From the NCBI GenBank assembly GCA_007753915.1, contig CP036352.1, positions 3,721,306-3,785,305 of the forward strand: 64,000 bases of DNA, written 5' to 3'. Origin of the DNA: Phycisphaerae bacterium RAS2 (lineage in GTDB: Bacteria; Planctomycetota; Phycisphaerae; UBA1845; UTPLA1). The notes below the pieces were generated by a model that worked only from the letters and a program-made list of their open reading frames with translations, was not told the origin of the DNA and ran no database searches. Both the position numbers and the translations under genes were made by a program. This document shows positions 22,828 to 59,989 of this stretch, one piece after another (the first letter of the stretch is position 1; every line of letters starts with the position of its first letter).

Positions 22828-24375
22828 TCAACCCAACTGATATTCCGGCATGCTGACGATCAGATGCAGCAGCAGCCGGACGGACGCGGCGTCGATTTTG
22901 CCGCCATCGGGTAGCTCGTCCTTCAAGGCGCGGATGAGAATCTGCTGCCGCCCCTGGGTGATTTCGCGCTGGAGCAGCCGGCGAACGAAGTAATCCACGA
23001 CGGCTTCTGGCGCTTCGAGCTTGTTCGCGCGGATCATCGGCATCGGATCGAACGGAGGCTGGGCCGCATCGACCAGCCCGGCGTCCATCGCCTCGCCACC
23101 GAGCGTCGCCTCCAGTTGCGGGCGCATGGCCGCCCGTCGATAGCGCTCGCGCGGGTTGTCGGTGCCATCGAGCACCATGCCGACAAGGTTGTACCGGTTG
23201 AACAGGGTGCTGGTGCTGATCCAGGTCTCTCCGCCGTCCCAGCCCTTCACGTTCGGCGGCTGCATCAGTTGCTGCCCCATCTGCCGCAGGGCGACGTTGA
23301 TGGCCAGCGTGTCGCGCGGGGCAACCTCCAGCATGCGCATCGTGCCGACGACGAGTTCGACCGGGCTTTTGATGTGCGTGAACCGTGCTTTCTCGCCGTA
23401 GAACACGTCGCTTAGGAACATCTCACGGAGCATCGGCTTCAATTCGTACTTGTTTTTCCGCAGCGTCTTCGCGAGGGCATGGACGACGTTCAGGGGCGGG
23501 TCCTCGTGCGCGAAGAACGTCCAGAACTTCGCCGCGACGAACTCGGCCGTCGCCGGCTGTGCCAGAATAATGTCAACCACGTCGGCCGGCCCCCACGGCC
23601 CGGTGCGCCCGAGAAACGTCTTCACGCCGTCGTCGTGCTGCCGGCGGTTGAACGTCGTCTCACCGGTCGCTGGATCGATCTGGATGCCGGTGAGCGCGCG
23701 GGCCGCTTCCTTGATGTCCTTCTCGGTGTAGCGCCCGCTGCCCATCGTGAACAATTCCATCAGCTCGCGGGCGTAGTTTTCGTTCGGCTTGCCCTTGCGA
23801 TTCTGCTGCGAGTTCAAATACAGCACCATCGCGCCGTCGGCTGTCACATCGAGCAGCAGATCGCGGAAGTTGCCGGCGGCGTGCTTGCGGAACAGTTCGT
23901 TCTGCTGATACAGCAGGTAGCTCGATTTCACCTCGCGATAGCCGCTGGTGAAATGGCCGTGCCAGAACAGCACGAGCTTTTCCTGCAACGGGCGCGGCGT
24001 GGCGACCATGGTCTGAATCCACCAGTCGAGCACGCGCGTAAGCTGTGCCGCTGATTCGCGCCGCAGGCGCGTCTGTTCGCGCTGGCGCTCCTGCTCCGAC
24101 ATTTCCATGCGCGCCATGCGATCGGGCCTCGACCCCCGCGAGACTTCGATCGGCAGCGTTTCGTCCGGCTCGTTCTCGTAATTCAGCAGGTAATCGACGG
24201 CCTTTCGCCGGCCCATCTGATGCAGGTAGTCAATCTGTTCGGGCGTGCCGCCGAAACCGGCGCGCCGGAGCAGATGGGCGGCGTGGTCGCGTGTCCACTC
24301 GCTGGAGGCGTAGAGCTGGCCTGTCGGCGCTGGGCCGGCCAGGGTCAGGATCATGGCAAACGTCGCGTTCAACAT
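22828..24375 (-). CDS. DUF1800-family secreted protein
   Basis: A 515-residue protein from the ATG at 24375, which has AAGGAAA upstream and begins a short Sec-like signal sequence; the frame is open 18 codons further. DUF1800 hallmarks are HLLRRAGFGGTPEQ near residue 35, LFWHGHFTSG near 130, YARELMELFTMGSGRYTEKDIKEAARALTG-type text near 200-230 and a PPNVKGWDGG block near 385. It is upstream of the DUF1501 gene in the same direction, the usual paired arrangement. The pair is probably exported together; the molecular role is unknown. Confidence 0.94.
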   Translation of the reverse strand: MLNATFAMILTLAGPAPTGQLYASSEWTRDHAAHLLRRAGFGGTPEQIDYLHQMGRRKAVDYLLNYENEPDETLPIEVSRGSRPDRMARMEMSEQERQREQTRLRRESAAQLTRVLDWWIQTMVATPRPLQEKLVLFWHGHFTSGYREVKSSYLLYQQNELFRKHAAGNFRDLLLDVTADGAMVLYLNSQQNRKGKPNENYARELMELFTMGSGRYTEKDIKEAARALTGIQIDPATGETTFNRRQHDDGVKTFLGRTGPWGPADVVDIILAQPATAEFVAAKFWTFFAHEDPPLNVVHALAKTLRKNKYELKPMLREMFLSDVFYGEKARFTHIKSPVELVVGTMRMLEVAPRDTLAINVALRQMGQQLMQPPNVKGWDGGETWISTSTLFNRYNLVGMVLDGTDNPRERYRRAAMRPQLEATLGGEAMDAGLVDAAQPPFDPMPMIRANKLEAPEAVVDYFVRRLLQREITQGRQQILIRALKDELPDGGKIDAASVRLLLHLIVSMPEYQLG

Positions 24376-24513
24376 GAGCGTTTCCTTGCGTGTCGGCCGT
24401 ACAGCATGGCCGCGAAAGGCCGCGGGCATGTCACCCCGGGCGCCTCGCCCCTATCGATGCGGGGCCAAACGATTGCCGCCAGGAATTATTTCGACCGACT
24501 CGGGCCGGACCGC

Positions 24514-25725: not shown

Positions 25726-27453
25726 CTAGGGGTTGCTATAGGTGAAATTCACGTGGTTAACGCCGTGGCAGGTCAGGGTGCAGGAACCCTGGAATCGGCC
25801 CGTGTCGATGAACCGGCGCTGCCCGCCGACGATGCGCAGGTCGAAGTTGATGAGCGCGCTGTGATTGGCCGGGCTGCCCGAGACGCCGTGCGGCGCGTGA
25901 CACGACGAGCACGGCGTGCGGCCGGTGACGACGTGCCGGTTGTGGAAGGTGAAGCTCTGGTCGCCGAGGATGCTGGTGCGATCGTGGCAGCGATAGCAGA
26001 GGGCATACGCCTGGGGCGATTCCATCGTGAAGTCGGCCGTCTCGTAGTTTTCCACGAGCAACCAATCGAAGCGTGAACCGTGCGGCCCGTTCGGCCCGCC
26101 GCCACCGAGGTTGCGCGCGTCGGGATTGTTGTGACAGCTCTGGCAACTCAACACCTGGTGCGCGAGCGGATTGATGAGACTTGGAACTTCCCCGGAGTTC
26201 CGCGCGGGGCTGACGACAGGATGCAGCGACGCGTTGGTCGGGAGGAACTGGCGGCGAACATTGCCGAAGTTGTCGCGCTGGCGCGGGATGCGATCCTGCA
26301 TGAAGACGGGATTGTCCCCGTGGCAGCGGAAGCAGACTTCGTAATAGTACCGCGCCCGGTCGGTCGGCGTGCCGGCGACGGTGACGCCCTTCACGAACTC
26401 CATCGGCGGCGGCACGAGCACGCCGCGCGGCTCGAACACAGGTACGAGCGACCCGATCGGGTTGTCGCGCACGGCGTGCGGATTGTGACAATCGACGCAT
26501 TCGCTGTGCGGCGGCATTGCGAGGTGGTTCTCCGTCGGGTCGTGAAGATCCAGCAGGCGATTGAAGCGATGCGAACTGCGCAGATTCAGCACGCCCTGGA
26601 TGTCCCGCCCGTTCAAACCGTTATGACAACTGATGCACAGTTCACTGGGCCGGTCGTTCAGAAGCCGTTCGGGGTGCTGCGCGTTGTGCGACGTGTGACA
26701 CGAATAGCAGGCGGCATCAGCCATCGTCGCGAACGGCAGCGCTTCGCCGTTGGTCACCGTGACGGGCACCGATCGCGGCGCGAGGGCGTGGGCGCTCATC
26801 TGCCAGCCGTCCATTTTGTGGCAGGTGTTGCAAAGCGCGCCCTGGCGCTGCGTGACGCGGAGAAAATCGCCGAGTTCGTTGTTGTGCGGATTGTGGCACG
26901 CCGTGCATTCCATCTCGCCGCGTTCGCCGAGTTTGACACGCTGGGAGACCAGATCAGGCGAGCGCAGCTGGTGATCGCGCGCCGCTAATTGCCGATCGAA
27001 TCGGAACCCGACGGGATGATCGTCGGAGAGATCGTTGGTGAGGTTCGAGCGGCCCGAGGTCAGGAACGGCTGATTCATCGGGATCGGATCGGTCGGCGGG
27101 CGACTCAACACCATGCCCAGCGCGACCGAGCCGTCGTGGCAGGAAAGGCACATCTTGCTTGGCCCGCCGGGTTGATCGATGCGCGCGTCGGTGGTGCTGC
27201 TCTGGTAGATTCGATAGTAGGTCGTGGGGTTGTATCGGTTCCAGAGCGGGGCCTGCGGGCTGGCGTTGTGCGGCGTGTGGCAGAAGATGCAGACCTCGCC
27301 CTCGTTCAAGGCGCGGATCGAGCCGGGGCCGGTCGCCGAAAGATTGTGCACCGAGTTGACGACGCTCTCATCAGCGCGCGCGGACTTCACCGGCGCGCCG
27401 GTCAGCAGCCCGATCGTCCAAAGCACGGCCAGAATCGTTGGTGTCGTTTTCAT
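25726..27453 (-). CDS. Periplasmic/extracellular 12-haem cytochrome c
   Basis: A 575-residue exported protein with a Sec signal (residues 1-27). It has eleven CXXCH sites from C55 onwards and a final CTLTCH (CX3CH) site near the C-terminus, so up to twelve covalent haems. Many sites are of the CXXCHXPH/CXXCHNPH doubled-motif kind. Spacing is irregular, which suggests a chain-like electron wire rather than an enzyme; no catalytic domain is seen. Its ATG overlaps the TGA of the NHL lipoprotein gene upstream, which overlaps the beta-barrel gene in turn, so all three are coupled. This is the downstream gene of a likely conduit operon. Confidence 0.9.
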   Translation of the reverse strand: MKTTPTILAVLWTIGLLTGAPVKSARADESVVNSVHNLSATGPGSIRALNEGEVCIFCHTPHNASPQAPLWNRYNPTTYYRIYQSSTTDARIDQPGGPSKMCLSCHDGSVALGMVLSRPPTDPIPMNQPFLTSGRSNLTNDLSDDHPVGFRFDRQLAARDHQLRSPDLVSQRVKLGERGEMECTACHNPHNNELGDFLRVTQRQGALCNTCHKMDGWQMSAHALAPRSVPVTVTNGEALPFATMADAACYSCHTSHNAQHPERLLNDRPSELCISCHNGLNGRDIQGVLNLRSSHRFNRLLDLHDPTENHLAMPPHSECVDCHNPHAVRDNPIGSLVPVFEPRGVLVPPPMEFVKGVTVAGTPTDRARYYYEVCFRCHGDNPVFMQDRIPRQRDNFGNVRRQFLPTNASLHPVVSPARNSGEVPSLINPLAHQVLSCQSCHNNPDARNLGGGGPNGPHGSRFDWLLVENYETADFTMESPQAYALCYRCHDRTSILGDQSFTFHNRHVVTGRTPCSSCHAPHGVSGSPANHSALINFDLRIVGGQRRFIDTGRFQGSCTLTCHGVNHVNFTYSNP

Positions 27454-28505
27454 GGCACGCTCTGCGTCGTTGGGGGGTCGCCCGCACCGAGAAACTGAAA
27501 CACCTGCACGCGTCGATTGTAGGTGTCGGCAATCCAGATGCGATCCCGTTCATCAATCGTGATGCCCGACGGCAGGTAAAACTCGCCCGGCGCGCGACCC
27601 TCCTGCCCCCAGGCCATCAGCAGTTGGCCGTCGCGCGAGAAGATCTGCACGTTTTCGAACTGGTTGTCCACGACGTACACGTGGCCATGCGAGTCCAACG
27701 CAAGGTCGCGCGGCATCGAGAAGTCCCCCGCCGCGTCGCCTTTTTGGCCGAACATGGCGAGCGGTGAGCCGGTCTCGGCCAGCACCTGTACGCGAAAGTT
27801 CATCGAGTCGGCCACGGCCAGGCCGTAACGCGGGTCGAACGCCAGGCCCGCGGGATAATTGAACTCGCCCTGCGATGCACCGCGCCGGCCGAGCGTCCGT
27901 TTCAGTGAACCATTGGCCCCCATCACATGGCACGCATGGGCCGCCGAATCCAAGACGAACAAGTCGCCGCTCGCCGGATGCACCGCGATGGCCGACGGCC
28001 GCTTCAATCCCTCGATGGCGAGCGTCCGTCGGAATTGACCACTCTCGTCAAACTCGAAAACGCCGGGGCGGGCGCTGTCCGCGACAAACAAGGAATCACC
28101 GCGCAACGCCAAGTCGATGGGGAAGCCGAACGGCGCGCCACCCGCGACTGTGATCGCCTGAAATTCTCTCGTCGCCACGTTCAACCGATAAACTGCCCCT
28201 GCCTGACCATCTGCCACGAAGACGACATCGCCGCGCGTTGCGACAGATGTCGGCGTGGAGAAGTTCGTCACAGGTGGCGGCCCCTCGAGCGCCGACTTGA
28301 CGGCGGCCCAGCCGGTCGGACGACGATCCAGCGATTCTTCCCCGATCAACTCGCCGATGTAGCGGATACGCGGGGCGTCGGGCGCCTTGGGCCAGACGAT
28401 CGCCGGCGCAACATCGGGGAAGACCGGTCGCTGCGGGCGCTGGCAACCCGCCATCGCGCCGAGCGCGACCCACGCAATCAGCAAGCATGCACGGCACATC
28501 GTCAT
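27450..28505 (-). CDS. NHL-repeat beta-propeller lipoprotein
   Basis: A 351-residue protein from the ATG at 28505, chosen because it overlaps the upstream stop (ATGA) and starts a signal peptide ending in a lipobox (AMAGC, C21). From about residue 60 to the end there are about six NHL blades, recognised by repeating D-x-x-R-V-Q/F-V-style strands and FG-x-G-x-x-x-G-x-F turns. The fold is a six-bladed propeller with no obvious catalytic residues, normally a protein- or polymer-binding scaffold. It sits between a beta-barrel gene and a 12-haem cytochrome gene with 4-bp overlaps both sides. In the locus at 51731-59817 the same kind of propeller is fused to haem domains, which argues for direct contact with cytochrome. 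Confidence 0.9.
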   Translation of the reverse strand: MTMCRACLLIAWVALGAMAGCQRPQRPVFPDVAPAIVWPKAPDAPRIRYIGELIGEESLDRRPTGWAAVKSALEGPPPVTNFSTPTSVATRGDVVFVADGQAGAVYRLNVATREFQAITVAGGAPFGFPIDLALRGDSLFVADSARPGVFEFDESGQFRRTLAIEGLKRPSAIAVHPASGDLFVLDSAAHACHVMGANGSLKRTLGRRGASQGEFNYPAGLAFDPRYGLAVADSMNFRVQVLAETGSPLAMFGQKGDAAGDFSMPRDLALDSHGHVYVVDNQFENVQIFSRDGQLLMAWGQEGRAPGEFYLPSGITIDERDRIWIADTYNRRVQVFQFLGAGDPPTTQSVP

Positions 28506-30634
28506 GATCGCGGCTTTCCGATGATCGGTATCTCGCGGCGGACCTTCACCCACAGCGCGGCGGTGTTGTCGGTGCTGGTGGGCAGGTCGAGCATATCGTA
28601 TTCGGCTTCGACCAGCAGGGTGAACAGCCCCAGCTTCCACGAGACGGATGCCGTCAGGTCCACACCGTTTGTCTCGCCGAAAATTGAATCGTTCTGGAAC
28701 CGATAGAGCGCGGTGGCGTTGGCCTCGATACTGGGCGCGAGCGTGTAGCGGTAAAACGCCCCGAGGTCCAGCAGCATCGTATCGCGCGAGTCGAAGTTCT
28801 CGTTGCCGTCGAATCGGAAATGCGAGAGCGCCCCGCGCAGCGCCGCCTGCTGCTTCAAGTCCTGCAGCACGGTGACATCGCTGGTGAAGTGCCCGGCCTG
28901 GTACGGATCAATCCCGTCGTGATTGTATTCGTATTCCGCCGACCCCGCCCATCGCGGCTTCGTGATCGCGACGCCGAGCCGGTGGCGGTTGATGTCGCGC
29001 TCCTGAAAAACGAGATAACGATCATCCGACAGATCTTCATCCTGAAGTGACAGGGCGTAATACGGTTCGATGCCGTTCTTGAATCGATGTGCGAGCCGCA
29101 GGTCAATCCGATCGCGCGTCGCGCCATAGTCATTGAACGCGCGATACGAGTACGTCACCAGCACCGTCTGCCCATCGACGATCATGCCGGTTGGATTACG
29201 CACCAGCGACGTCAATTCGCCCTGCTTCACCACTGCGTAGTCTCGCCCGGCGAGGAACAGGCGCGACCGGTCGGCTGCCATGACCATGAGCGTGACGAGG
29301 TTGACGTTGCGCTGCGCGAGGTACACCGGCAGCGGATCACGAAACGTAAGGGTTTCTTCGACGGTAATGCCGTCGCGGCGGCCGTCGGACGTGCGCGTCT
29401 GGGAGTGGTGATAGGACAGATTCGCGCTGGACCGGCCCCAATCGTTTTCCTTCGAGAAGCTCGAATTGAACATCGAGCCCCATTCGGTGGCATCGGCGTT
29501 GCCGTCGGCGCGCTGCTCGAGCGCATACAGGTTGACAGTGTTCGTCAGCGACTTGAACAGCGTGTGCGTCAGACCGGCCTCGCCGCGGAAGGTCTCGGTC
29601 GAGAGATCGAAGTAGTTCTGCTTGAGGTACTGCGTGCGAAACAATGAAAAGAGATCGTCGGTGTGCTGGAGCCGCAGTTGCGGGGCGACTTCGACGACGT
29701 CGCGCGGGAGATCGCCGCGCTCCTCTTCGACGCGCACGAACGTATCCAGCCGGCTGCGGCGGTCGTCGCCGAACTGGATCGCGTCATTCAGGGCGAGGTA
29801 ATTCCGCGTCGTGGTGAACGAGTCGCGCGTGCCGGAGTAGCGGTCGTTGCGATTCTCGTATTCATAGTTAATGTTGAGCGAGTGGTCCTCGGTGGGGTTC
29901 CAGGTCGCTTCGTAACGCAGCGTGTCCTCGGCAAGCTCCTCATCGTCCATCAGATAGCGCGAGTCGCTGGTCAGGTCGTCGTACAAGTGATCAAACGTCA
30001 GCTGCATCGGCAGCTTCGGGTCGTTGAAGATCAGCGCCGCGCCGTACTGCTCGCGCGTGCGATCGAGGCTCGGCAGGAACGGTCGTTGCAGCCGATCCCG
30101 CAGTTGCGAGGCGTTCGCCGTGGCAGAGAGCCTGCCCTGTGGGAAGGCATGAAGCCGCAGGTCGTATTCCAGCAATGTGCCGTCCGGATCGCGCGACAGG
30201 TCGAACCCCGGCCGCGATTCTTTGTAGTCCTCCTGCGAGAGACCGCCGCGGATCATGGCGTCGTACAGCAGCACCTTTTCGCTGACGATGCTGCCGCTGG
30301 AGGAAAGACCGAGGTACTCTTCAAATCGCGTGTTCCGGTTCTTCTGGTCGTAGCGCGCGAGAGGCCCGCCGATGTTGGTGCGAACGGTCCGGCGCATGGC
30401 CTCGAAGTTCGCGCCGAGTTCGGCTGTCATTTCGTCTATTTTCAGGAGCGGACGGCGCGAGGATTGCAGGCTCAAGGGACCGGGCGACTCGGCCGTGGAA
30501 TCGCCGGCCGACGCATCCGACGGCTCGGCCGTCGCATCCCCCGAATCATCTTCGGGTGTATCGGCCGTCGCGGATGCAACGCATCCGACGAGCAGCAGAA
30601 CGGCGACAAGGAACAATGCTCTGCGAATCAGCAT
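28502..30634 (-). CDS. Predicted outer-membrane beta-barrel lipoprotein
   Basis: A 710-residue protein with a lipobox (LLVGC, C18) followed by an acidic, Ser/Ala/Asp-rich linker (about 20-55). The rest alternates amphipathic strands with Tyr, Phe and Asn/Asp-rich turns, typical of a large outer-membrane barrel. A more globular stretch at about residues 420-500 may be a plug or surface domain. No CXXCH is present. It is the first gene of a coupled operon with the NHL lipoprotein and the 12-haem cytochrome. A barrel plus multihaem cytochrome is the plan of porin-cytochrome conduits (MtrAB-type, and Ext-type in Geobacter); homology to those was not shown. A terminal aromatic residue is absent. 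Confidence 0.75.
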   Translation of the reverse strand: MLIRRALFLVAVLLLVGCVASATADTPEDDSGDATAEPSDASAGDSTAESPGPLSLQSSRRPLLKIDEMTAELGANFEAMRRTVRTNIGGPLARYDQKNRNTRFEEYLGLSSSGSIVSEKVLLYDAMIRGGLSQEDYKESRPGFDLSRDPDGTLLEYDLRLHAFPQGRLSATANASQLRDRLQRPFLPSLDRTREQYGAALIFNDPKLPMQLTFDHLYDDLTSDSRYLMDDEELAEDTLRYEATWNPTEDHSLNINYEYENRNDRYSGTRDSFTTTRNYLALNDAIQFGDDRRSRLDTFVRVEEERGDLPRDVVEVAPQLRLQHTDDLFSLFRTQYLKQNYFDLSTETFRGEAGLTHTLFKSLTNTVNLYALEQRADGNADATEWGSMFNSSFSKENDWGRSSANLSYHHSQTRTSDGRRDGITVEETLTFRDPLPVYLAQRNVNLVTLMVMAADRSRLFLAGRDYAVVKQGELTSLVRNPTGMIVDGQTVLVTYSYRAFNDYGATRDRIDLRLAHRFKNGIEPYYALSLQDEDLSDDRYLVFQERDINRHRLGVAITKPRWAGSAEYEYNHDGIDPYQAGHFTSDVTVLQDLKQQAALRGALSHFRFDGNENFDSRDTMLLDLGAFYRYTLAPSIEANATALYRFQNDSIFGETNGVDLTASVSWKLGLFTLLVEAEYDMLDLPTSTDNTAALWVKVRREIPIIGKPRS

Positions 30635-30823
30635 GACCTGGAACCGGGCACGACTTGCGACGAGCCGATGCTACGTGAGTCATGAGCGTCCGGCTCGGGC
30701 ATCTCGCCTTGACGCCGTCAGGCAGGTATCCTACCGAGCCGATGGGTCTGCGTCGTCGAACTTTTCGACGGACGCGCCTCGCTTTCGGTCTGCAACCCGG
30801 CCGATGTCCTGCGAGCTGAATGC

Positions 30824-31507
30824 ATGAAACACACCGCGACAGATTGGCGACCTGCCCGACTAGGGACAATCACGCTGGGTGCGGCATTTTGCGCGGTTCT
30901 CGTCGCCTGCGCGGCACGGCCGACCATCGACAGCCCGCCCCTGAATACATCGGCCGAAATCGCCGGCGGGCCTTCTGCGATCGATGAACCGTCCGATCTG
31001 TACGCCGGGGGCCTGACCGGCAGCAAGCATGATTTCTCCTTAAGCGACGGGCGATGGAAGGACCTCTGCACACCCTGCCACACGCCGCACGAGCCGAAGC
31101 TGCCGGATGCGGCGGTGTCGGGCGCGCCGCCCGTTCGATTCGTGAGCTACTCTGCCGATCCAACTTCGCTGGACCGCTCGTCGGTGCTGTGCTTGAGCTG
31201 CCACGATGGCGTCACCGCGCAGGACGTGTTCACCGGCGCGCACGCCGTTTCATGGTCAACCCCGCTGGGGGCGAGCACCCTGCCGATCAGCGGGCGCGTC
31301 AGCCACCCGATCGGCATCCGGATGCCGTTGGGCGACTCCACGTATCGCAGCCCGGCCGAGGTTCAGGCGAGCGGGTTGGTCAAGCTGCCCGATGGGCGCG
31401 TGCAGTGCATCTCCTGCCACGATCCGCACAACACCGACCGGCACCCGGCCATGCTGGTTCAATCCAACCGCGGCAGCCGACTGTGCCTCGCATGCCATCG
31501 CATCTAA
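30824..31507 (+). CDS. Tetrahaem c-type cytochrome lipoprotein (paralogue 1)
   Basis: A 227-residue protein with a lipobox (LVAC, C29) and four CXXCH sites: CTPCH, CLSCH, CISCH and a C-terminal CLACH. It is clearly paralogous to the protein at 59110-59817: both share a GVxxxDVFTxAHA stretch after haem 2, a DGRxxLPxGRVQC-like approach to haem 3 and an HPAMLV-S-N run before haem 4. It starts 190 bp from the divergent beta-barrel gene, so the two operons may share control. Its end overlaps the next gene, an NHL lipoprotein. A small hairpin (CGTCGAA/TTCGACG, 30754-30770) lies in its leader. Confidence 0.9.
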   Translation: MKHTATDWRPARLGTITLGAAFCAVLVACAARPTIDSPPLNTSAEIAGGPSAIDEPSDLYAGGLTGSKHDFSLSDGRWKDLCTPCHTPHEPKLPDAAVSGAPPVRFVSYSADPTSLDRSSVLCLSCHDGVTAQDVFTGAHAVSWSTPLGASTLPISGRVSHPIGIRMPLGDSTYRSPAEVQASGLVKLPDGRVQCISCHDPHNTDRHPAMLVQSNRGSRLCLACHRI

Positions 31508-32661
31508 GTCGATTGCTAATCGCCCTCGGCGCGGCGCTGGCGGCAGCGCCGGCGACGCTCTGTGGTTGCGCGAATACAGGGGCAGCATCGCGCCCGACGT
31601 TCTCGTGGTATTCCGCCCAACCGGACGCGCAACAATCGCCAACGAAAGCGGCTCGGATAACCGGGCCGCGCGTGCTGGCCCTCGGCAACTTGCGATGTGG
31701 CCAAGCACCCTCCGAAGCACGGCAGGCGTTGTCGGAGTTTTTTCTCGGCGAGCGAATCGAGAGCGGCCCCGGCCTCGTCAAGCCGGGCGCGATGGCGTGG
31801 CAAAAAGACGGCTTACTTGTTTCCGATGCCGGGCTGGGCACGCTGGTTCGCTGGCCTTCCGCAGCGCACGGACTTCAACCGGCGGTGGTGTCGGACGAAT
31901 CGATTCGCGCGGCCGCGGTCGCCGCATGTGAGAATGGTGAATTCCTCGTCGCGATCCCGGCGTCGGCGGCAGTCCATCGCTATGACGCACGTGGGCGGCT
32001 TGTTCGACGCTATTTGATTTCATCCGAGTTTCGACCGATGGGCGCGGCGCAGATCGGGCGCAGCATATGGGTGACAAACGCGGCGCGACACAATATCGAG
32101 GTGTTCGATTCGGAAAGCGGTTCATCCGTGCGCGCAATCGGGCAGCGCGGGCGCGGACCGGGCGAGTTCAACCTGCCGATGGGCATCGCGGCGCTGCCGA
32201 AGGATCATCCGCTGGCCGACGGCGGTGCGGTCGTGGTGGATTCGTTCAACGCGCGAATTCAGGTGCTTGATTCGAGCGGCCGATGGGTGCGCGACCTGGG
32301 CGGGCCGGGTGATATCACGGGCCGCTTCGGGCGACCGATCGGCGTAGCGGTCGGACCGGATGGGGCGATTTTCGTGCTCGATGCGGCGTCGCAGCGCGTG
32401 CACGCGTTTGACGAACGAGGCAAGGCCCTGCTGGCGTTCGGCAGGCAGACGGCGGATTCACACTCGCTTCTGCTGCCGGGCGGAGTGTGCGTGGTCCCCG
32501 TTGTAGCAGAGGCAACCACTCTGCGGCGCGATGCGGGCGTTGAATTAAGACCAGCGTATTACGTCTTGGTGTCGGAGCAATTAAATCGCCCGGGCATTCG
32601 CGCGTATGCGTGGTTTGAAACAACGGCGGCATCAGAGAGAATCGGACTCATGACGCATTGA
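31492..32661 (+). CDS. NHL-repeat beta-propeller lipoprotein, paralogue without haem domain
   Basis: A 389-residue protein. The ATG at 31492 overlaps the tetrahaem gene by 16 bp and starts a signal peptide with a lipobox-like TLCGC (C26). The body (about 60-385) has NHL/propeller blades with GPGEFNLPMGIA and GRFGRPIGVAVGPDG-type repeats and ends in a YYVLVSEQ...PGIRAYAW element. That element and most blades match the propeller half of the 8-haem fusion at 57116-59134, but here the protein stops after the propeller. It follows a tetrahaem gene just as its paralogue does. No catalytic residues are evident; a scaffolding role for electron-transfer proteins is inferred. Confidence 0.87.
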   Translation: MPSHLSRLLIALGAALAAAPATLCGCANTGAASRPTFSWYSAQPDAQQSPTKAARITGPRVLALGNLRCGQAPSEARQALSEFFLGERIESGPGLVKPGAMAWQKDGLLVSDAGLGTLVRWPSAAHGLQPAVVSDESIRAAAVAACENGEFLVAIPASAAVHRYDARGRLVRRYLISSEFRPMGAAQIGRSIWVTNAARHNIEVFDSESGSSVRAIGQRGRGPGEFNLPMGIAALPKDHPLADGGAVVVDSFNARIQVLDSSGRWVRDLGGPGDITGRFGRPIGVAVGPDGAIFVLDAASQRVHAFDERGKALLAFGRQTADSHSLLLPGGVCVVPVVAEATTLRRDAGVELRPAYYVLVSEQLNRPGIRAYAWFETTAASERIGLMTH

Positions 32662-51730: not shown

Positions 51731-54700
51731 CTACTTCCGGCGGCGCACCGGATCGTGGAAGAACAAGAACCGCTCAAGCGCGTCAAATCCGTGACACGTG
51801 GTGCACACATTCGGCGCGCGGAACGGGCGAAGCATCAGCCGTGCCGAGCGGAGCGCCTCGCGCGAGCGATCCGGGCCGCTGAATTCCGTATCGGGCAGAT
51901 GGCCGTGCGGCGTGTGACAGGTGCGGCAGGCGATCTGCCCCTGCGACGCGGTGCGGCCTTCGACATCGTAAAGCGGCAGGCTCTCATCCCGTGTGCCGTC
52001 AAAGATGTTCAACATGGGCACGTCAGGGTGCGATGCGATCATCGGTGGACGCGCCGTGCCGCCTTCACGATGGCAGGCCTCGCAGCGCTGATCCGACGCG
52101 TGCATGGCGGCGAAGTTGATTGCCTCGCGCGGAGCAGCCGCCTGTGGCATCGCGCGGGGGCTGGCCGATTCTTCCGCGACCGCGAGCGATCTCGGCCAGA
52201 GCAGATCGTCCTCGACGGCTGTCGGCATCGCATGCACCGAATGACAGGGCAGGCAAGCCTGGGCCGGCAGTTGTTTCGATTCGAACGTCGCCGCGGTGTG
52301 GGCCGTCATGGTGATGGCCGATGCGTCAGAGTGACAGGTGATGCAGAGACTGCTCGCGGGTGCGCCGGCTGCGGTGCGAAGGAACTTGTGCGCAGCCCCG
52401 TCGGCCGCGTGCGGATTGTGACAGGTGCGGCAGCCGACGACGGACGCCTCGGTTGAGGCGGAGCGTGCGAGCGGCAGTCCGCCGGTGGCGAAGCCGGCCG
52501 GCACGATACGCGGGTGCATGGCGGCGTGATCGGATTGCTTCAGGCCTTCGCCGTCGGCGCCGTGTCCCCAGGCCGCGCCGGGATGGCAGGCGATGCAGGC
52601 CCCGTCGGACGCGGCGTCGGCCGGTGATGCGGCGAAGGTAAACAGCCCCTTGTCGTCTTTTCCGTGCGGACGGTGACAGGCGAGGCAAGTGTCTTCGCGA
52701 AGGTCAGCAACTTGCGGCCATTGATTCCCTGTGCTGCGAAAATCGTGCGGGCCGCCGGAAAGCGCCGCGTATTCAGCGTGGCACTTGACGCACAAACCCG
52801 GCGTCGGCTCGCGCAGGAACTGCCCCAGCGCCGGGCGATTCGGCTCGTGCGGACCGTGCGGATCGTGGCATTCGACGCAAGCGGCCTTGGGATGATTGAA
52901 GCTCCCGAGGGCCTTTTCGCCGGCGCAGCGGCCCTCCTGGTGACAGGTGATGCACTTGCCGCCGCCGGGGTCGATGTCGCTGATCTCCGGCGAACGCGCG
53001 TAGCGATGAAATAAGTGACACGAACTGCACGGCCCGCCGGTCTGGGCGGTCATGCCGAGCCGGTTGCGCTCTTCGGGGTAGGTCTTCCGCAGATCGTGCG
53101 GCGTCTTAAATACGGATGTCTTTGCCGAGTGACAGCCGACGCAGAACGCGCCGTCGGTCAGTTCGGCCGCGAGCATGAAGCGCTCGCCCTTGCCGTGGTG
53201 CAGCTTGTGGCAGGACAGGCAGATCAGCTTGTCGTCGGGGCCGAGCTTGGTCCCGAGCGACTGAATCGCCGCCTTCTGCTCCGTGTTCACGATCGGGCTA
53301 AGCGGGTGCTCGGTGTGGTCGCCATCTCGAAACATGCCCGGGCGCATCTGATCGTGACACGAGAGGCACAACTGGTTGGATTCGGTTCCCATCACGAGCA
53401 GATGATCGTAGGCCGCGCCGTGCGGCGTGTGACAGACGTTGCAGGTCAGCTCGCGCGGGTTCGGGCCGACCTTCGCGCCGGCGGCAATCAGATCGTTCGG
53501 CACGGCCCAGGGCATGCCGCCGGTCGGGTGCGTGCCGCGCTGGGGTCCGCGGGTCTTGTCGGCGTGACAGGTGACGCACATTTCACCCGAGGTGTTCGGC
53601 ATTCTTAAAAAGACTGACGTCTTAAGATTGCCCGACAAGTCGCCTCCCGCGTGCGCCGAGTGACACGTTCGGCAGGCAATCTTGCCGTCAACCAGCGGCA
53701 ACTGCGGCGGGACGGTCATCTCCGGCAGCGGCGCGATGTCGGTGCGATGGCCATGCTCCAGCCAGACGCGCCGCCGCGAGTCGACGATCGATCCGTCATG
53801 ACACGACAGGCAGGTGTGCGGCTGGCTGACGTAGGGGTGAACCGGATCATCGTCGGGCGGATTGATCAATTCCGTGCCGCGTTTCTGCGCCAGCGGCTCG
53901 ACCCACTCCATGTGGCAGACCGTGCATGCCCGAGCCTGCCGACCGACAACGCTGGGCCGCTGCGTTGCAGAGCGCGACTCATCGCGTGCGGAGGCGCCCG
54001 CGTCGGCGCGGCGCACGATCCTGAAACTGCGCACGCGGTTGGCGTCAAGCTCCACGACATACAGGTCGCCCGACGCGTCGAACGCCATCCCCATCGGCGC
54101 AGCCAGCTTCAACGGCTTGCCCGACGCGTCGCGCAGCACGTCAATGAAGCGGCCCGTCGACGTGAACACCTGAACCACGCCCAGGACGCTATCGCTCACC
54201 CAAACGTTGCCGTCGGCATCCAATGCAACGCCTTTGGGCCGATACAACATCCCCGGCTCGACGCCATATTGCGCGATCGACGTCACCACGCCGCCGGTGT
54301 CGCTGAACACGCCGACGCGGCCGTTCAGCACATCCGACGCATACACATTCCCCTTCGCGTCACGAGCCAGCATGAAGGGATAATGCAACTGTCCGCGCGC
54401 TTCGCCTTGCCGGCCCGCCAGCGCATGCGTGCCCCGCTTCACGTCGTGCCGAATCAAGACGTGGCGATTGTTGTCGACCGTCCAGACCACCGCGCCATCC
54501 GGAGAAACCGCTGCATCCGTCGGATCGGCTGGGTGATCGTTCGGCCCAGCGGGCAACGGAATAATGCGAATCAACTCAATGGGGGCGTCGGCGGCGGCAG
54601 GGACGTTTGCAACGACGATCCGTGCGTTGCCGGCGTCGGCAATCCAGAGGTTTCCCGAAGCATCGACGTCGATCCCGACGGGATGAGCAAGCGATTGGTC

Positions 54701-55069
54701 TGCGACGCGGCGAATCTCGCGCGCGACATGGCCCGCCGGGTTAAAGACCACGATTCGATCATTCACTCCGTCGGCGACAAACACGCGTCCGTCGCGCGCG
54801 ACGGCGACATCCGTCGGCATGAGGAGACCGGGCGCGGCACGGTCGGCGAACTCGATCGCGGATTGTGCCAGCAGCGGAACATCCGGCGCTCCGGAAGCAG
54901 GCTGCGTCGCGGCAAAATCCGCAATCGGCGTATCCGCTTGTTGCGCAAAAATCCGCGGTGCGCAGATGACTGCCAGCAGGAAGAGCACCAAAGCGCGATT
55001 CCACGGAAAATACGAACGCTTCGCGGCAGCGCCGAACAAGAAAGAAATAGCGGAAAAAGCGTTCGCCAT
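51731..55069 (-). CDS. NHL beta-propeller fused to a 20-haem cytochrome c
   Basis: A 1112-residue exported protein. The ATG at 55069 is chosen for the GAGG eight bases upstream and because it begins a signal sequence (about 1-44, cleavage near IFA). Residues about 60-370 form an NHL propeller with MPTDVAVARDGRVFVADGVN-style blades. From C382 to the C-terminus there are twenty CXXCH sites, many in the CXXCHXPH form. No catalytic domain is seen. The fusion combines on one chain the propeller and haem wire that are separate genes at 25726-28505. Probably periplasmic or outer surface. It is divergent from the NapC-type gene (96 bp), implying a shared control region. Confidence 0.92.
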   Translation of the reverse strand: MANAFSAISFLFGAAAKRSYFPWNRALVLFLLAVICAPRIFAQQADTPIADFAATQPASGAPDVPLLAQSAIEFADRAAPGLLMPTDVAVARDGRVFVADGVNDRIVVFNPAGHVAREIRRVADQSLAHPVGIDVDASGNLWIADAGNARIVVANVPAAADAPIELIRIIPLPAGPNDHPADPTDAAVSPDGAVVWTVDNNRHVLIRHDVKRGTHALAGRQGEARGQLHYPFMLARDAKGNVYASDVLNGRVGVFSDTGGVVTSIAQYGVEPGMLYRPKGVALDADGNVWVSDSVLGVVQVFTSTGRFIDVLRDASGKPLKLAAPMGMAFDASGDLYVVELDANRVRSFRIVRRADAGASARDESRSATQRPSVVGRQARACTVCHMEWVEPLAQKRGTELINPPDDDPVHPYVSQPHTCLSCHDGSIVDSRRRVWLEHGHRTDIAPLPEMTVPPQLPLVDGKIACRTCHSAHAGGDLSGNLKTSVFLRMPNTSGEMCVTCHADKTRGPQRGTHPTGGMPWAVPNDLIAAGAKVGPNPRELTCNVCHTPHGAAYDHLLVMGTESNQLCLSCHDQMRPGMFRDGDHTEHPLSPIVNTEQKAAIQSLGTKLGPDDKLICLSCHKLHHGKGERFMLAAELTDGAFCVGCHSAKTSVFKTPHDLRKTYPEERNRLGMTAQTGGPCSSCHLFHRYARSPEISDIDPGGGKCITCHQEGRCAGEKALGSFNHPKAACVECHDPHGPHEPNRPALGQFLREPTPGLCVKCHAEYAALSGGPHDFRSTGNQWPQVADLREDTCLACHRPHGKDDKGLFTFAASPADAASDGACIACHPGAAWGHGADGEGLKQSDHAAMHPRIVPAGFATGGLPLARSASTEASVVGCRTCHNPHAADGAAHKFLRTAAGAPASSLCITCHSDASAITMTAHTAATFESKQLPAQACLPCHSVHAMPTAVEDDLLWPRSLAVAEESASPRAMPQAAAPREAINFAAMHASDQRCEACHREGGTARPPMIASHPDVPMLNIFDGTRDESLPLYDVEGRTASQGQIACRTCHTPHGHLPDTEFSGPDRSREALRSARLMLRPFRAPNVCTTCHGFDALERFLFFHDPVRRRK

Positions 55070-55164
55070 CGTGGACCTCGGCGGCCGATTCGCTGAACAT
55101 GATAGACGCGCGGGCGCGCCTTGCCTATCGACTGTTCGCCGCGCGCAGCACGAGGAGCGCACGC

Positions 55165-57015
55165 ATGTCCCAGACGCCGCCCTTCGATTCACCCAATAAC
55201 AATGTCGACTCCAATGCGACGGGTTCGATTGGTGACAACGCGACGCGCAGTCCCGGAGGAACCATGAGCCACGCGGCCTCACCGGCAAAGAAGAAACGAT
55301 CGCGGATGAAGCTGCTGATCGTCGCGGGGCTGGGGTTGATGGTCTTTGCCGCGGCGAGCATCGGCGGTGCGGAGTATTACACATCGCGGCCCAACTTCTG
55401 CGGCTCGTGTCACGTCATGGACCCTTATTTTGACTCGTGGTCGCATGACATCCACGGAAAGAAGGCCGGCGTGCTGTGCGTCGAATGCCATTACGCGCCA
55501 GGCGAGCATCACACCATCATGGCGAAGTTCCGCGGGTTGTCGCAGGCGGCGAGTTATTTCAGCGGGCGTTACGGCGCGGGCCGGCCGCGCGCCCACGTCA
55601 ACAACGGAAGCTGCCTGACGTCGGAATGCCACGGCGACGGCACGCGTCTCGCCGACGAACACATGAACAAATCGCTGATGATCGGCGAACCTCGCACCGA
55701 GACACGCCTGATCGCAGGCCTGCCGACCGAAATCGAGCGAAAGCCGACGGTGCGATTTGTTCACGCCAAGCACCAGCTCATCGATGAGCGCGTCACGCTG
55801 AACAAGCGCGACCTGGCCGTTGTCGGAGAACGACTGCGCAAGGCGCTGCCGCCCGAGGCGTTCTCCCGCGTCGAAGCTGCCGTGCGATCCGTCAAGGACG
55901 CCCCCCAACGCCAGGCCGACCTGTCGGGCCTGCTGAGGCAACTTGGGCACGACAGCCACTCCGGCGACGCGATGGAGTTCATGCGACTGGAACACATGCG
56001 CATACGGCTGGCACAACTGGCCGACCTGAACTGCGCCGCGTGCCACACCTACGACGCCGGAGGAGCCAATCACTTCCGCGTCGACACGACAACGTGTTTC
56101 ACCTGTCATTTCTCGCACCAGGAATTCAACCGCGACACGGGCGAATGCCTGAAGTGTCACGAGCCGCCGACGCGGCAGATCGTGGTGCATGCCCCGGCCG
56201 CCAGCGCGAGCACGACGGCCGCCACCGGCGCGCTCATGGACCATCAGGACATCGTCGCGCGCGGGATTGACTGCGCCAGTTGCCACGCGGACGTGATTCA
56301 GGGACAGGCGGACGTGTCGGCGCGCGACTGCACGCACTGCCACGACCAGTCAAAGTTCATTGAGGAGTTCGAATCGCGCACCACGCAGACCGTCGAAGAA
56401 TATCACCGCGTTCACGTCGGCGGCCAGCACGCACGTTGCACCGACTGCCATCGTGTCATTCATCACGCGCTGATTGAACCGGAGTTCGTCGGCAGCCGGG
56501 CGGAGTTTCTCAAGCCCGTCGTCGACGACTGTCAGCATTGTCACCCTTCGCACCATCGGGAGCAGGTCGAGTTGCTGATGGGCGTGGGCGGCGCGGGGAT
56601 TGACCGGCCGATGCCGAACGCGATGTTCGGCTCGCGTCTGAACTGCAAGGCCTGTCACAGTGAATCCGGCAGCGACTTCAAGGGCGACCCGCTGGTCAAG
56701 GCGACCGAGGACACCTGCCTCAAGTGCCACGGCGATGATTACCGCACGATTTTCCAACAATGGCGCGGCGAGATCGCCAGCCAATTGGCCGAGGCTCGGG
56801 CAGCTCTCCAGCGGGTGGACGAACGCATCAAGGCCATCGGCGTGCGGGCCCAGTCGCTTCCGCCGCGAATTCGAGACGGAATCGAGAACGCCCGCACAAA
56901 CATCCGCCTGATCGAATCCGGAAACGGCGTGCACAACCGAACGTACGCCGTCTCGCTGCTGGACCTCGCCGCGCGCGACCTGGACGCAGCCCTTGCGGAA
57001 TTGAGCAGATTGTAG
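55165..57015 (+). CDS. Membrane-anchored NapC/NirT-type 12-haem cytochrome c
   Basis: A 616-residue protein starting at ATG 55165 (AGGAG seven bases upstream; ATGs at 55099 and 55264 are alternatives). A hydrophilic N-tail is followed by one membrane helix (about 49-68) and a large outer domain. The first haem site is C79-GS-CH; eleven CXXCH and one CLTSECH (CX4CH, third in order) give up to twelve haems. The anchor and first haems look like NapC/NirT-type quinol dehydrogenases, which pass electrons from the quinol pool to periplasmic cytochromes; NapC itself has four haems. The last 90 residues are helical. It faces the 20-haem gene and could supply it with electrons. Confidence 0.9.
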   Translation: MSQTPPFDSPNNNVDSNATGSIGDNATRSPGGTMSHAASPAKKKRSRMKLLIVAGLGLMVFAAASIGGAEYYTSRPNFCGSCHVMDPYFDSWSHDIHGKKAGVLCVECHYAPGEHHTIMAKFRGLSQAASYFSGRYGAGRPRAHVNNGSCLTSECHGDGTRLADEHMNKSLMIGEPRTETRLIAGLPTEIERKPTVRFVHAKHQLIDERVTLNKRDLAVVGERLRKALPPEAFSRVEAAVRSVKDAPQRQADLSGLLRQLGHDSHSGDAMEFMRLEHMRIRLAQLADLNCAACHTYDAGGANHFRVDTTTCFTCHFSHQEFNRDTGECLKCHEPPTRQIVVHAPAASASTTAATGALMDHQDIVARGIDCASCHADVIQGQADVSARDCTHCHDQSKFIEEFESRTTQTVEEYHRVHVGGQHARCTDCHRVIHHALIEPEFVGSRAEFLKPVVDDCQHCHPSHHREQVELLMGVGGAGIDRPMPNAMFGSRLNCKACHSESGSDFKGDPLVKATEDTCLKCHGDDYRTIFQQWRGEIASQLAEARAALQRVDERIKAIGVRAQSLPPRIRDGIENARTNIRLIESGNGVHNRTYAVSLLDLAARDLDAALAELSRL

Positions 57016-57115: not shown

Positions 57116-59134
57116 TCATTTTTCATGGCACTCCATGCAGAGCGTCGCGCTGGGGACACGCAGCGCCGCGTGGGCATCTTCCGCTGCGGCGGACCGCTGC
57201 CCCAGGGGCGAGCCGGCCGGGAACAACTCCGGCTGGTGCGGATTATGACAGGTGTAACAGGTGACGCGGTCGTCGCCCAGCGGAAGAGGCGATGGCACCG
57301 CGCCGGCGGCGCTCTTGGAGCCGTCCGAATCGACGCGACGCGCTGTCAGCCAGTCGCGAATCTCATCCGTCATGGGGCGATCCACGTGGCCGCGCTCGGA
57401 AACATCCCAGTGTCGAACGTGACAGGCGAGGCATCCTTGCGACGTGTTCGTTCGCAACAGCGGCTGCCCGCGTCGCGCGCCGTCAGCCGTCAGATCTGGA
57501 ACATCCGTGTGGCAGAAAAGACACGTGCGTGAGTTGACCGCGCCGCCGGCATCGACCTGCCGGTGCGGGCTGAATTGCCACGACGCATCCTCCACGTGGC
57601 ACGAGCGGCAGTAGGAATCGGCCCGCGCCGAATCGTACCCGCGCAGCATCGCGGGATTGACCGCCGGGCGCCGCGCCCCCGCATCGCAATGTTGGCGAAT
57701 GTCGTGACAGGTCAGACAGGTCAGCCGGCCCGCGTCGGTCGGCCAGTCTTCCGGCGTCTTCACCGTGGCCGTCCGCGCGAGCCTGCCTGTCGGGTGCGGC
57801 TCGTCATGCGCCTTTCGGCCATCGTGGCAGGCGAGACACGTTTGATCGGCCTGCGCAATGGGAATCGCACGCGGCGCGCCGTCCTCCGGAGCGTGACACG
57901 CGTTGCATTGCGCGGGTGACCAGTGGGGGTTGATTGCCGGCTCAACCCCTTCCACCAATGGGCGCGATCGTTTGAGCGGGGCAGCGTTCAGGGCCGCCGT
58001 GGTGGTGGTGCGGCCCCATGCGTACGCGCGCAGGCCCGGCTCTGCATAGCGCTCCGCGACGATGATGTAGTAGTCGGTCTTGAATCCATCGGGCGGGGCC
58101 TCCGCCTCACCCGGCAATTGCGCGACGACCGCCAGACTGGAAGGCGAAACCAATTTCTGTGATTCGTCGCCCGCATCGCCAAAGATGGCGATCACTTCGC
58201 CGTGATCGCCAAACGCCTGCACGCGGCCCAGCTTCGCATCAACGACGAACAGCGTCCCATCCGGTCCGAAGCCTGCATCACGGGGGAGTGAAAAACACCC
58301 GGCGGCGTCTCCGGCGCGCCCGATGGTCCGCTGCCACGTTCCATCCGCCGCGAGAACTTGCACGCGATGATTCATCGTATCGACAACGCACACGCTGCCA
58401 TCGGACGACATCGCGAGATTCGTCGGATAGCGAAACTCGCCGAGGCCGTCGCCGCTTCGGCCGATTGAGCGCAGCCATTGACCGGAATGGTCAGAAAAAA
58501 CCTCAATCCGGTGCATCGCTGTATTACTGACCCAAAGCTCTTTTCCGACAAACGCCAGCCCGCCCGGTTGAAACGCGACATCCGTAGCGACCCTGCAATG
58601 GTGCTCCTGCCAGGTCCAGTCCAGAATCGTCACCTCGCCCCTGTTTCGTTCGGCAAACGCTGCCGCGATACCCCCGTCCGGGTTGATCGCACAAGCCACA
58701 ATCGGCCGCTCGCCATTCGGCTGATTGACCTGCGCAATCGATTCATCGTCTGAAGTCCAGTTAAGCAGTCTGTTCACGAAGGCGTCGACGACGAAGAGGT
58801 TGCCTCCGCGTGTCGCGCGAACATGAATCGGCTTGCCGAGCTGCTCCGCGGGCGAGTCGTCAATGCCGAACACGAGCGACGCCAGCGCATCGGTCCGCGA
58901 GCGCGGCGACCCCGGCATTCGAAGATTCCCCAGCGGCGCGGCGCTTCGAGGCGCAGCCGGCTCGCGCGGCGCGGGCCTCGCGTCGGTTACCGGCACAGAG
59001 CGGCCGGCCCTCTCGGATGACGACTCCGTTGCAATGCGTCGCTCGCAACCGGTCAGCGCGACGCCGATCACCGCAAGCACCGCGAGCGCGAACGACAGCG
59101 CGCGGCCAATCACAGGCGATGGCACGACAGGCAT
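57116..59134 (-). CDS. NHL beta-propeller fused to an 8-haem cytochrome c, lipoprotein
   Basis: A 672-residue protein. The ATG at 59134 starts a signal with a clear lipobox (ALTGC, C30) and overlaps the tetrahaem gene by 25 bp; a longer frame reads through that gene. Residues about 75-400 form the propeller, ending in a YYIIVAER...PGLRAYAW element. C410 begins eight CXXCH sites running to the C-terminal CMECH. The propeller is paralogous to the protein at 31492-32661, which lacks haems. Both follow tetrahaem lipoprotein genes, so the two loci are duplicates that gained or lost the cytochrome half. Confidence 0.92.
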   Translation of the reverse strand: MPVVPSPVIGRALSFALAVLAVIGVALTGCERRIATESSSERAGRSVPVTDARPAPREPAAPRSAAPLGNLRMPGSPRSRTDALASLVFGIDDSPAEQLGKPIHVRATRGGNLFVVDAFVNRLLNWTSDDESIAQVNQPNGERPIVACAINPDGGIAAAFAERNRGEVTILDWTWQEHHCRVATDVAFQPGGLAFVGKELWVSNTAMHRIEVFSDHSGQWLRSIGRSGDGLGEFRYPTNLAMSSDGSVCVVDTMNHRVQVLAADGTWQRTIGRAGDAAGCFSLPRDAGFGPDGTLFVVDAKLGRVQAFGDHGEVIAIFGDAGDESQKLVSPSSLAVVAQLPGEAEAPPDGFKTDYYIIVAERYAEPGLRAYAWGRTTTTAALNAAPLKRSRPLVEGVEPAINPHWSPAQCNACHAPEDGAPRAIPIAQADQTCLACHDGRKAHDEPHPTGRLARTATVKTPEDWPTDAGRLTCLTCHDIRQHCDAGARRPAVNPAMLRGYDSARADSYCRSCHVEDASWQFSPHRQVDAGGAVNSRTCLFCHTDVPDLTADGARRGQPLLRTNTSQGCLACHVRHWDVSERGHVDRPMTDEIRDWLTARRVDSDGSKSAAGAVPSPLPLGDDRVTCYTCHNPHQPELFPAGSPLGQRSAAAEDAHAALRVPSATLCMECHEK

Positions 59135-59817
59135 AGCGCGCTCCGTTCGTTGGATTTGACCAGCATGGCCGGGTGACTTCCGGCATCGTGTGGATCGTGG
59201 CACGACACGCATTGCACGCGCCCGCCCGGTAGGCGGATGCGTCCGTCGCGCGTGGCGATGCTCGCGGCCCGGTAGCGCGGGTGATCGGACGGATAACGTC
59301 CGCCGATGGGATGCCCGGCCAGCGCCGGTGAACGATCCCCGCTCGGTCCGAGGGAAGCGAGACTCGCAGCGTGCGCCGTTGTGAAGACATCCGTAGCAAT
59401 CACGCCGTCGTGGCAGCCGAGGCACACGAGGCTGTGCCGATCCAGTTCCCGGTCCGAATCCTGCGCGAGCACGGCCCTTGAACGCGGGAGTCGCTCCGCG
59501 GGCGGCCTCGCGGCGCCGTCCGTCATGCCCTCGGGCGTGTGACAGGTGAGGCACAGGCTTCGCGCGTCGCCACGGCCATCGGAGAAATCATGCGGCCCGC
59601 CGACCATGCGACTGACATGGCGTGTGCCTTGCACTGAAGTGGATGTGGTCGGTTGTGACGTCAGCTGATTTCCGGATATCGCCGGCGATTCGGATTTCCC
59701 CGGTCGCGGTGAATCAAGACAGGCTGACACGAGGGCGATGGCGATCACCGCGCACGCCAGAACGCCGGCGCTTCGGCGCGGGCGGCACCAAGCGGCAAGT
59801 CGGTTGGAAATCGTCAT
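59110..59817 (-). CDS. Tetrahaem c-type cytochrome lipoprotein (paralogue 2)
   Basis: A 235-residue protein from the ATG at 59817, where the signal peptide begins and ends in a lipobox (LVSAC, C33); a longer frame adds 27 residues. Four haem sites (CLTCH, CLGCH, CVSCH, C-terminal CLSCH) are spaced as in the protein at 30824-31507, with matching blocks GVxxTDVFTTAHA and HDPHDAGSHPAMLV. It is the first gene of a two-gene operon with the NHL/8-haem fusion. As a lipid-anchored small cytochrome it could relay electrons between membrane and partner; that is inference. Confidence 0.9.
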   Translation of the reverse strand: MTISNRLAAWCRPRRSAGVLACAVIAIALVSACLDSPRPGKSESPAISGNQLTSQPTTSTSVQGTRHVSRMVGGPHDFSDGRGDARSLCLTCHTPEGMTDGAARPPAERLPRSRAVLAQDSDRELDRHSLVCLGCHDGVIATDVFTTAHAASLASLGPSGDRSPALAGHPIGGRYPSDHPRYRAASIATRDGRIRLPGGRVQCVSCHDPHDAGSHPAMLVKSNERSALCLSCHRL

Positions 59818-59989
59818 CGCAAGCGTCAATCGTATGGAGGTGTCCGGACGGGGGCAATCGGCGACATTGAATGATCCGGATGCTGATTCCACGGGCACTG
59901 CGCAAATCCTCGCACAGCTTGCCGCGCCGGCGTTTCGCGAATAACTTGGTTATTGACCCAGACACATCAGGAAAAGGAGCCGTGTTCCC

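Follow-up and report, generated by a model that had tools for sequence, protein, structure and literature searches.

In the window, the 64,000-nucleotide stretch of the Phycisphaerae bacterium RAS2 genome (4.32 Mb, single contig) that was analysed here, we found a real and intact open reading frame whose product, 616 residues followed by a stop, is a multihaem membrane-anchored cytochrome (Table 1). Its start at 55165 is backed by an orthologue of 91% identity in a genome of the same genus (G001). The protein carries eleven CXXCH motifs and one CX4CH motif (CLTSECH, residue 150), starting at residues 79, 105, 150, 290, 311, 328, 370, 389, 425, 456, 494 and 518, and all of its 24 cysteines lie inside these motifs; 2000 shuffles of its residues gave a mean of 0.05 CXXCH and a maximum of two. 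This agrees with the original prediction, which had been made from the DNA letters and had counted twelve haems including one CX4CH. The AlphaFold2 model of the protein (mean pLDDT 80.9, pTM 0.76) presented a single N-terminal membrane helix (residues 42-73) and three long C-terminal helices.

The 12-haem gene is divergent from a gene encoding a cytochrome with 20 CXXCH motifs and an N-terminal NHL propeller. The two had been proposed to share a divergent promoter region of 96 bp; the divergent layout was confirmed, while the gap measured 95 bp and contained one promoter-like match, weak and on the minus strand, so that its function as a promoter region is plausible. Further cytochrome genes are found on both sides, including two minus-strand frames (57116-59554 and 59110-59898) that overlap as called. 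The cluster at 25729-32661, 25 kb away from the 12-haem gene, resembles an outer-membrane conduit of the barrel-cytochrome type. Since MtrB (6r2q_B) was just the fifth Foldseek match of the barrel, among many other barrels, the idea that it serves as a conduit porin depends on the gene context, and a TonB-type receptor or some other function would also fit the fold search. A DUF1800 protein is encoded near this cluster, at 22828-24429. 

Table 1. Features of the window discussed in the text (positions are those of the whole stretch).
Feature	Position	Strand	Basis
11-haem cytochrome; homologues clustered around the 12-haem gene of two relatives, L038 and L047	25729-27453	-	Gene context
NHL propeller protein of the 11-haem cytochrome cluster	27450-28640	-	ORF/family
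Large outer-membrane beta-barrel, candidate porin, 710 aa	28502-30634	-	Predicted all-beta barrel (pLDDT 85); Foldseek
4-haem doubled-CXXCH cytochrome next to the barrel	30713-31504	+	ORF/family
NHL / 6-bladed propeller ORF next to the barrel	31054-32661	+	ORF/family; true start probably inside
20-haem cytochrome with N-terminal NHL propeller, divergent neighbour, likely partner	51731-55069	-	ORF, family profile, co-occurrence, adjacency
Intergenic region between the divergent genes, 95 bp	55070-55164		Coordinates
12-haem membrane-anchored cytochrome, 616 aa	55165-57015	+	ORF, haem motifs, family profiles, predicted model/fold
Predicted transmembrane anchor helix, residues 42-73	55288-55383	+	Predicted structure
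NrfH-like haems 1-3, residues 79-156, CXXCHxM at haem 1	55399-55632	+	PF03264, phmmer, alignment
CLTSECH, the CX4CH site at residues 150-156, equivalent to NrfH haem 3	55612-55632	+	Homologue conservation, NrfH alignment
OcwA/NrfA-like C-terminal part, residues 389-616, haems 8-12, three-helix bundle, invariant His590-Asn591	56329-57012	+	Profiles, model, fold
Protein with NHL propeller and 8 haems, convergent with the 12-haem gene	57116-59554	-	ORF, families; true start probably inside ORF
Small 4-haem doubled-CXXCH cytochrome	59110-59898	-	Family profile

Elsewhere in the genome, near 597-601 kb, a b561-heptahaem gene stands together with a gene for an OcwA-like nonahaem protein with thrombospondin type 3 repeats, the 12-haem gene being located at 3.78 Mb. 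In relatives such as L038, L047 and L083, several genes equivalent to these two and to those of the barrel cluster are grouped around the 12-haem gene, at no more than about 10 kb from it. The nonahaem protein (L115:808-2358, contig C1 near 600 kb) is related to OcwA, cytochrome c554 and OmhA, and it is a candidate surface terminal reductase. The genome also encodes a haem-copper oxidase and three molybdopterin-family matches, so that the cell has other electron outlets, and a search of this genome for NrfD gave no match. At C1:694527-701431, a partial COX1-family match lies near a molybdopterin frame of 1185 aa, perhaps representing nitrate/nitric oxide genes.

The NrfH-like anchor and the haem 3 site

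The NapC/NirT family profile (PF03264) matched residues 46-131 of the 12-haem protein with 43.3 bits (cut-off 24.1), and no other protein of the genome belonged to this family. With the NrfH model TIGR03153, the score was 46.9 bits over residues 52-133 only, below the full-length cut-off of 134.2. When the single sequence was used as a phmmer query, the NrfH of the crystal structures 2j7a/2vr0 was the only PDB chain with E < 0.001, and a profile of 55 homologues matched NrfH at the start of the protein with an E-value of 2.1e-11. We aligned 15 of these 55 homologues with four ordinary NrfH-like proteins with four haems that are found in the same order (L027-L030), each of which is encoded near a protein with five CXXCH. 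NrfH haems 1, 2 and 3 aligned one to one with haems 1, 2 and 3 of the 12-haem protein, and NrfH haem 4 had no counterpart before the 12-haem chain continues. The profile score, the phmmer match and this alignment bear out the NapC-type anchor that had been predicted. The likeness to NrfH, NapC and CymA thus extends to a single N-terminal membrane helix, a CXXCHxM motif at haem 1 and three aligned haems; in contrast, those proteins carry four or five haems instead of twelve, and NrfH differs further in that its haem 3 is not a CX4CH site, its haem 4 is replaced here by a nine-haem extension and its distal acid is not conserved.

The CX4CH motif aligned with haem 3 of ordinary NrfH and is two residues longer. 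It was present at this place in 53 of the 55 aligned homologues, the two others (L082 and L087) displaying CXXCH, and the two cysteines and the histidine were invariant in all 55, on which grounds a chance or pseudo-haem motif was rejected. This is the conservation pattern of an occupied haem site, and the site, already counted as a haem in the original prediction, looks real.

Met85, the methionine of the CXXCHxM motif, was also kept in 55/55 homologues. In NrfH this residue (Met49) is described as a ligand of the menaquinol-facing haem, with Asp89 opposite (PMC8840924, PMC10654088). An acidic counterpart of NrfH Asp89 or CymA Glu107 was not conserved among the 55 homologues, residue 127 being Gln in 53 of them and residue 130 Ser, Lys or Thr in 53. 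Since the distal acid is not kept (Gln127, non-acidic residue 130), quinol oxidation by the 12-haem protein is what we infer; however, an aligned acid was absent from the Asp89 position of the four planctomycete NrfH compared too, so that its lack weakens, and does not remove, the reading of a quinol site.

The OcwA/NrfA-like part and the axial ligands

The profile of the 55 homologues matched OcwA (6i5b) over the C-terminal half of the protein with an E-value of 1.2e-22, and a C-terminal profile built from 33 of the 55 matched OcwA (6.7e-21), OmhA (5e-13), MccA (1.8e-5) and several NrfA (near 1e-4). As shared CXXCH motifs inflate these E-values, the structure was consulted independently. The C-terminal helices of the model span residues 526-558, 567-586 and 592-615. 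With residues 447-616, approximately, VIA-align returned MccA with a Z of 12.1 (139 residues, rmsd 3.1) and OcwA with a Z of 10.8 (133 residues, rmsd 2.7), and its best twelve rows all belonged to the OcwA/MccA/NrfA superfamily, although helical bundles can reach such Z values by chance. Foldseek matches of the 12-haem protein were weak (best E 3.2e-3, octahaem nitrite reductase), and the 17 best rows were all NrfA, octahaem nitrite reductase or MccA. OcwA is described with the same C-terminal three-helix bundle and as kin to NrfA and MccA (PMC6703420).

The proposal of an enlarged NapC has therefore to be revised: the NrfH-like part comprises haems 1-3 only, whereas haems 8-12, together with the helices of the C-terminus, fall within the OcwA/MccA/NrfA superfamily. 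The reading as an ordinary NrfH/NapC bearing additional terminal haems was rejected, the C-terminal half having a superfamily of its own. The protein has homology at both ends and all its haem sites are conserved, and its most fitting description is that of a fusion between an NrfH-type anchor and a multihaem domain of the OcwA/NrfA type. With OcwA (6I5B), OmhA (6QVM), MccA, octahaem nitrite reductase and NrfA it shares haems 8-12, the three-helix bundle and a His-Asn pair in the last helix; unlike it, these are soluble or surface enzymes or terminal reductases without an in-chain NrfH anchor, and the 12-haem protein contains no CXXCK.

In the alignment, haems 8-12 correspond to OcwA haems 5-9 and hence to NrfA haems 1-5. 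OcwA haems 5-9 are reported to superimpose on the NrfA haems, haem 5 being open under a His-His pair, and such pairs to sit over open haems (PMC6703420). Invariant candidate axial ligands outside the motifs, among the 55 homologues, were Met85 and histidines 97, 200, 203, 303, 360, 414, 417, 434, 464 and 590. Residue 487 was Met in 47 homologues and His in the other eight, an alternation as expected of an axial ligand, and the OcwA sequence has Met there; counting this residue, there are twelve candidate ligands for twelve haems. His464 aligned with an OcwA His-His motif. If it were a pocket residue, eleven ligands would remain and exactly one haem, probably haem 8, would be open; if it binds instead, twelve ligands would serve twelve haems, and the count fits either case.

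Relatives and their gene contexts

The search for the gene covered 61 genomes, comprising RAS2 itself and 60 others related to it at the level of genus, family or order. A match at E <= 0.001 was obtained in 44 of them, many to the anchor only, and one at E < 1e-70 in 20, two of these being partial. Among the 20 genomes that carry the 12-haem gene, 19 also had the 20-haem NHL gene, versus 14 of the 41 that lack it (Fisher p 3.8e-6, in a test that, like the other ones on co-occurrence, ignores shared ancestry). The two genes were adjacent in 14 of the 19 genomes, divergent in 13 and on the same strand in one, where the 20-haem match lies at a contig edge; the remaining pairs were on different contigs (three) or on one contig at distances of 4.1 kb and 448 kb. 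The divergent pairing is conserved across genera. The barrel was less specific, with presence in 18/20 genomes versus 26/41 (p 0.027). The b561-heptahaem gene was found in 19 of the 20 carriers of the 12-haem gene and in 13 of the 41 others. In the twelve genomes with the 20-haem and b561-heptahaem genes and no 12-haem gene, the two shared a contig in nine, and in seven they were about 1.2 kb apart on the same strand. The 20-haem gene thus pairs with the 12-haem or the b561-heptahaem gene, so that its product accompanies one quinol-side candidate or the other.

A scan of genome contigs yielded 457 stretches encoding some relative, of which the best 80, partly from the genomes of the 61-genome set, were kept. 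Among these 80, 39 proteins displayed eleven CXXCH and one CX4CH, seven displayed ten CXXCH, one CX3CH and one CX4CH, three displayed twelve CXXCH, one was a fragment and 30 had 13 to 28 motifs. The records of the relatives were from Planctomycetota, Nitrospirae, Deltaproteobacteria/Desulfobulbaceae, Acidobacteria, Gemmatimonadota, Bipolaricaulota, Verrucomicrobia and others, the closest named ones being Planctomycetota MAGs, mostly labelled Phycisphaerae, Phycisphaerales or Planctomycetota.

At 13 of these best 80 loci (Nitrospirae, Desulfobulbaceae and others), a molybdoenzyme was encoded within about 1.1 kb of the homologue. The comparison included 14 such proteins, that of L084 being 6.5 kb away and left out of the 13-locus count. 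Seven of the 14 formed a close group (the other six being 63-99% identical to the first), and four of them, scored singly against the ArrA model, reached 1049-1121 bits with a cut-off of 1600, so that they may be called ArrA-like and not certified ArrA. The other seven were less related, and the two that were scanned look of the Phs/Dms type. Seven 12-haem homologues (L051, L052, L053, L055, L057, L087 and L108) lie directly upstream of ArrA-like molybdoenzymes, and several of the ArrA-like loci also carry PhnD-like, histidine-kinase and response-regulator genes. The operon of L052 contains ArrB-like and TorD-like genes, with the 12-haem protein as the only membrane quinol subunit; in Shewanella, in which ArrC is absent, CymA is described as the link of Arr to the quinone pool (PMC2500031). 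These loci might serve a respiration of the arsenate type in which the quinol subunit is a multihaem protein. In a FastTree tree, the molybdoenzyme-associated group was apart from the Planctomycetota group.

Two more arrangements were seen among the relatives. At L065-L067, L069, L071, L075, L076, L091 and L109, homologues with 16-19 haem motifs are preceded by a nine-haem protein and a cytochrome b, the latter also standing upstream in the 18-haem group, and in several loci a Rieske protein is encoded upstream as well (families were checked in L067 only); they might represent a bc-type complex with giant multihaem subunits. At L044, L046, L062 and L111, the homologue converges, with a gap of 25-153 bp, with a protein of roughly 800 aa, after which comes a 14- or 18-haem gene; the protein of L046, the one scanned, is distant kin of the GSU2204 family. 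This is possibly a different conduit.

Role in electron transfer

We consider it probable, from sequence comparisons, that the 12-haem protein is a NapC/NrfH-type quinol dehydrogenase of the cytoplasmic membrane with a nine-haem periplasmic extension ending in an OcwA/NrfA module, the most likely role of which would be feeding periplasmic, perhaps extracellular, electron transfer. Quinol would be oxidised at the membrane-proximal haem 1, with Met85 as a ligand, and the electrons would pass through haems 2 and 3 and the nine further haems to the OcwA/NrfA-like periplasmic end, from there to the 20-haem NHL protein and possibly on to the outer-membrane barrel-cytochrome conduit. The 12-haem protein would stand beside, or replace, the b561-heptahaem (CbcL-like) protein of the same genomes. 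What we infer are quinol oxidation, the direction of flow, the 20-haem protein as recipient of the electrons and an acceptor outside the cell.

The molybdoenzyme context of the relatives is the best support for the quinol dehydrogenase role, although half of the 14 molybdoenzymes compared fall outside the close ArrA-like group. The role is also supported by the anchor homology, the invariant Met85, the presence of a sole PF03264 protein in the genome and the lack of an NrfD match there. Against it stand the non-conserved acid, the distance of the barrel, b561-heptahaem and nonahaem genes and the 14 genomes in which the 20-haem gene occurs without the 12-haem gene. As to the proposed path from the quinol pool through the 12-haem to the 20-haem protein, also put forward in the original prediction, co-occurrence in 19/20 genomes and adjacency in 14/19, in a pairing conserved across genera, strengthen it short of proof.

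The ligand count also allows for the protein to be a reductase in its own right, a one-chain NrfHA with haem 8 open under His464 that would reduce nitrite, hydroxylamine or a sulfur oxyanion. Haem 8 is indeed the counterpart of NrfA haem 1 and OcwA haem 5, and His464 as a pocket residue would leave one haem open; but the same count gives twelve ligands for twelve haems if His464 binds, the haem 8 motif is CTHCH and not CXXCK, and the separate molybdoenzymes, the 20-haem protein and the barrel as associates argue for a carrier, so that we hold this reading to be rather improbable. A version in which the one-chain NrfHA counterpart oxidises quinol, reduces a small substrate itself and also feeds outer-membrane conduits seems unlikely.

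Two other readings change what happens at the quinone pool. Electrons might flow inwards, from Fe(II), reduced humics or a syntrophic partner, with the 12-haem protein acting as a quinone reductase: CymA- and CbcL-type proteins have been proposed to be bidirectional (PMC6295460), and the haem-copper oxidase of the genome could receive such electrons. However, the relatives beside ArrA-like reductases suggest the reducing direction and the nonahaem protein resembles OcwA, a terminal reductase, which makes this inward flow quite improbable. Lastly, the protein might be a membrane-tethered wire without quinone contact that collects electrons from a b561-heptahaem protein, the latter being the one to oxidise quinol. 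The b561-heptahaem gene in 19/20 genomes with the 12-haem gene and the missing distal acid of the NrfH quinol site agree with such a wire, but the CXXCHxM signature is invariant and in the L052 operon no membrane electron-transfer protein other than the 12-haem one accompanies the molybdoenzyme; we regard it as very unlikely.

The favoured quinol dehydrogenase can also be set against other known quinol-side cytochromes, for which general background is found in PMC10553843, PMC10732223, PMC7829351 and PMC12307469. Geobacter ImcH, thought to oxidise menaquinol (PMC6295460, PMC12307469), similarly has a NapC-like start that continues into more haems; it is described, however, with three membrane helices, a CX3CH as first motif and 6-10 haems (PMC6295460), and the 12-haem protein, with one helix, a first motif of CXXCH type (CGSCH) and twelve haems, is set apart from ImcH by helix number, first motif and haem count, although one CX3CH does occur in seven of its 12-haem relatives among the best 80 of 457. 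One published table lists no ImcH homologue in Planctomycetes. The layout of CbcL, MtrH and MtoC, multihaem plus b-type, is that of the b561-heptahaem protein of the same genomes, an alternative quinol-side partner, whereas a b-type membrane domain is lacking in the 12-haem protein.

In the open-licence PMC literature, to which the search was confined, we found no account of such a 12-haem NrfH-OcwA (NrfH/NapC) fusion. The combination is conserved in many uncultured bacteria, and the protein appears to be a widespread and so far uncharacterised variant of the NapC/NrfH kind. For uncultured Phycisphaerae and their relatives, it represents a fourth quinol-side candidate, with a clear prediction of the proteins that it feeds, and its anchor also occurs next to ArrA-like enzymes of Nitrospirae, which suggests that the family is modular and has been plugged into different reductases by different bacteria. 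If the one-chain NrfHA were true, these proteins would form a family of their own that spans phyla and joins CymA, CbcL and ImcH among the quinol-side cytochromes.
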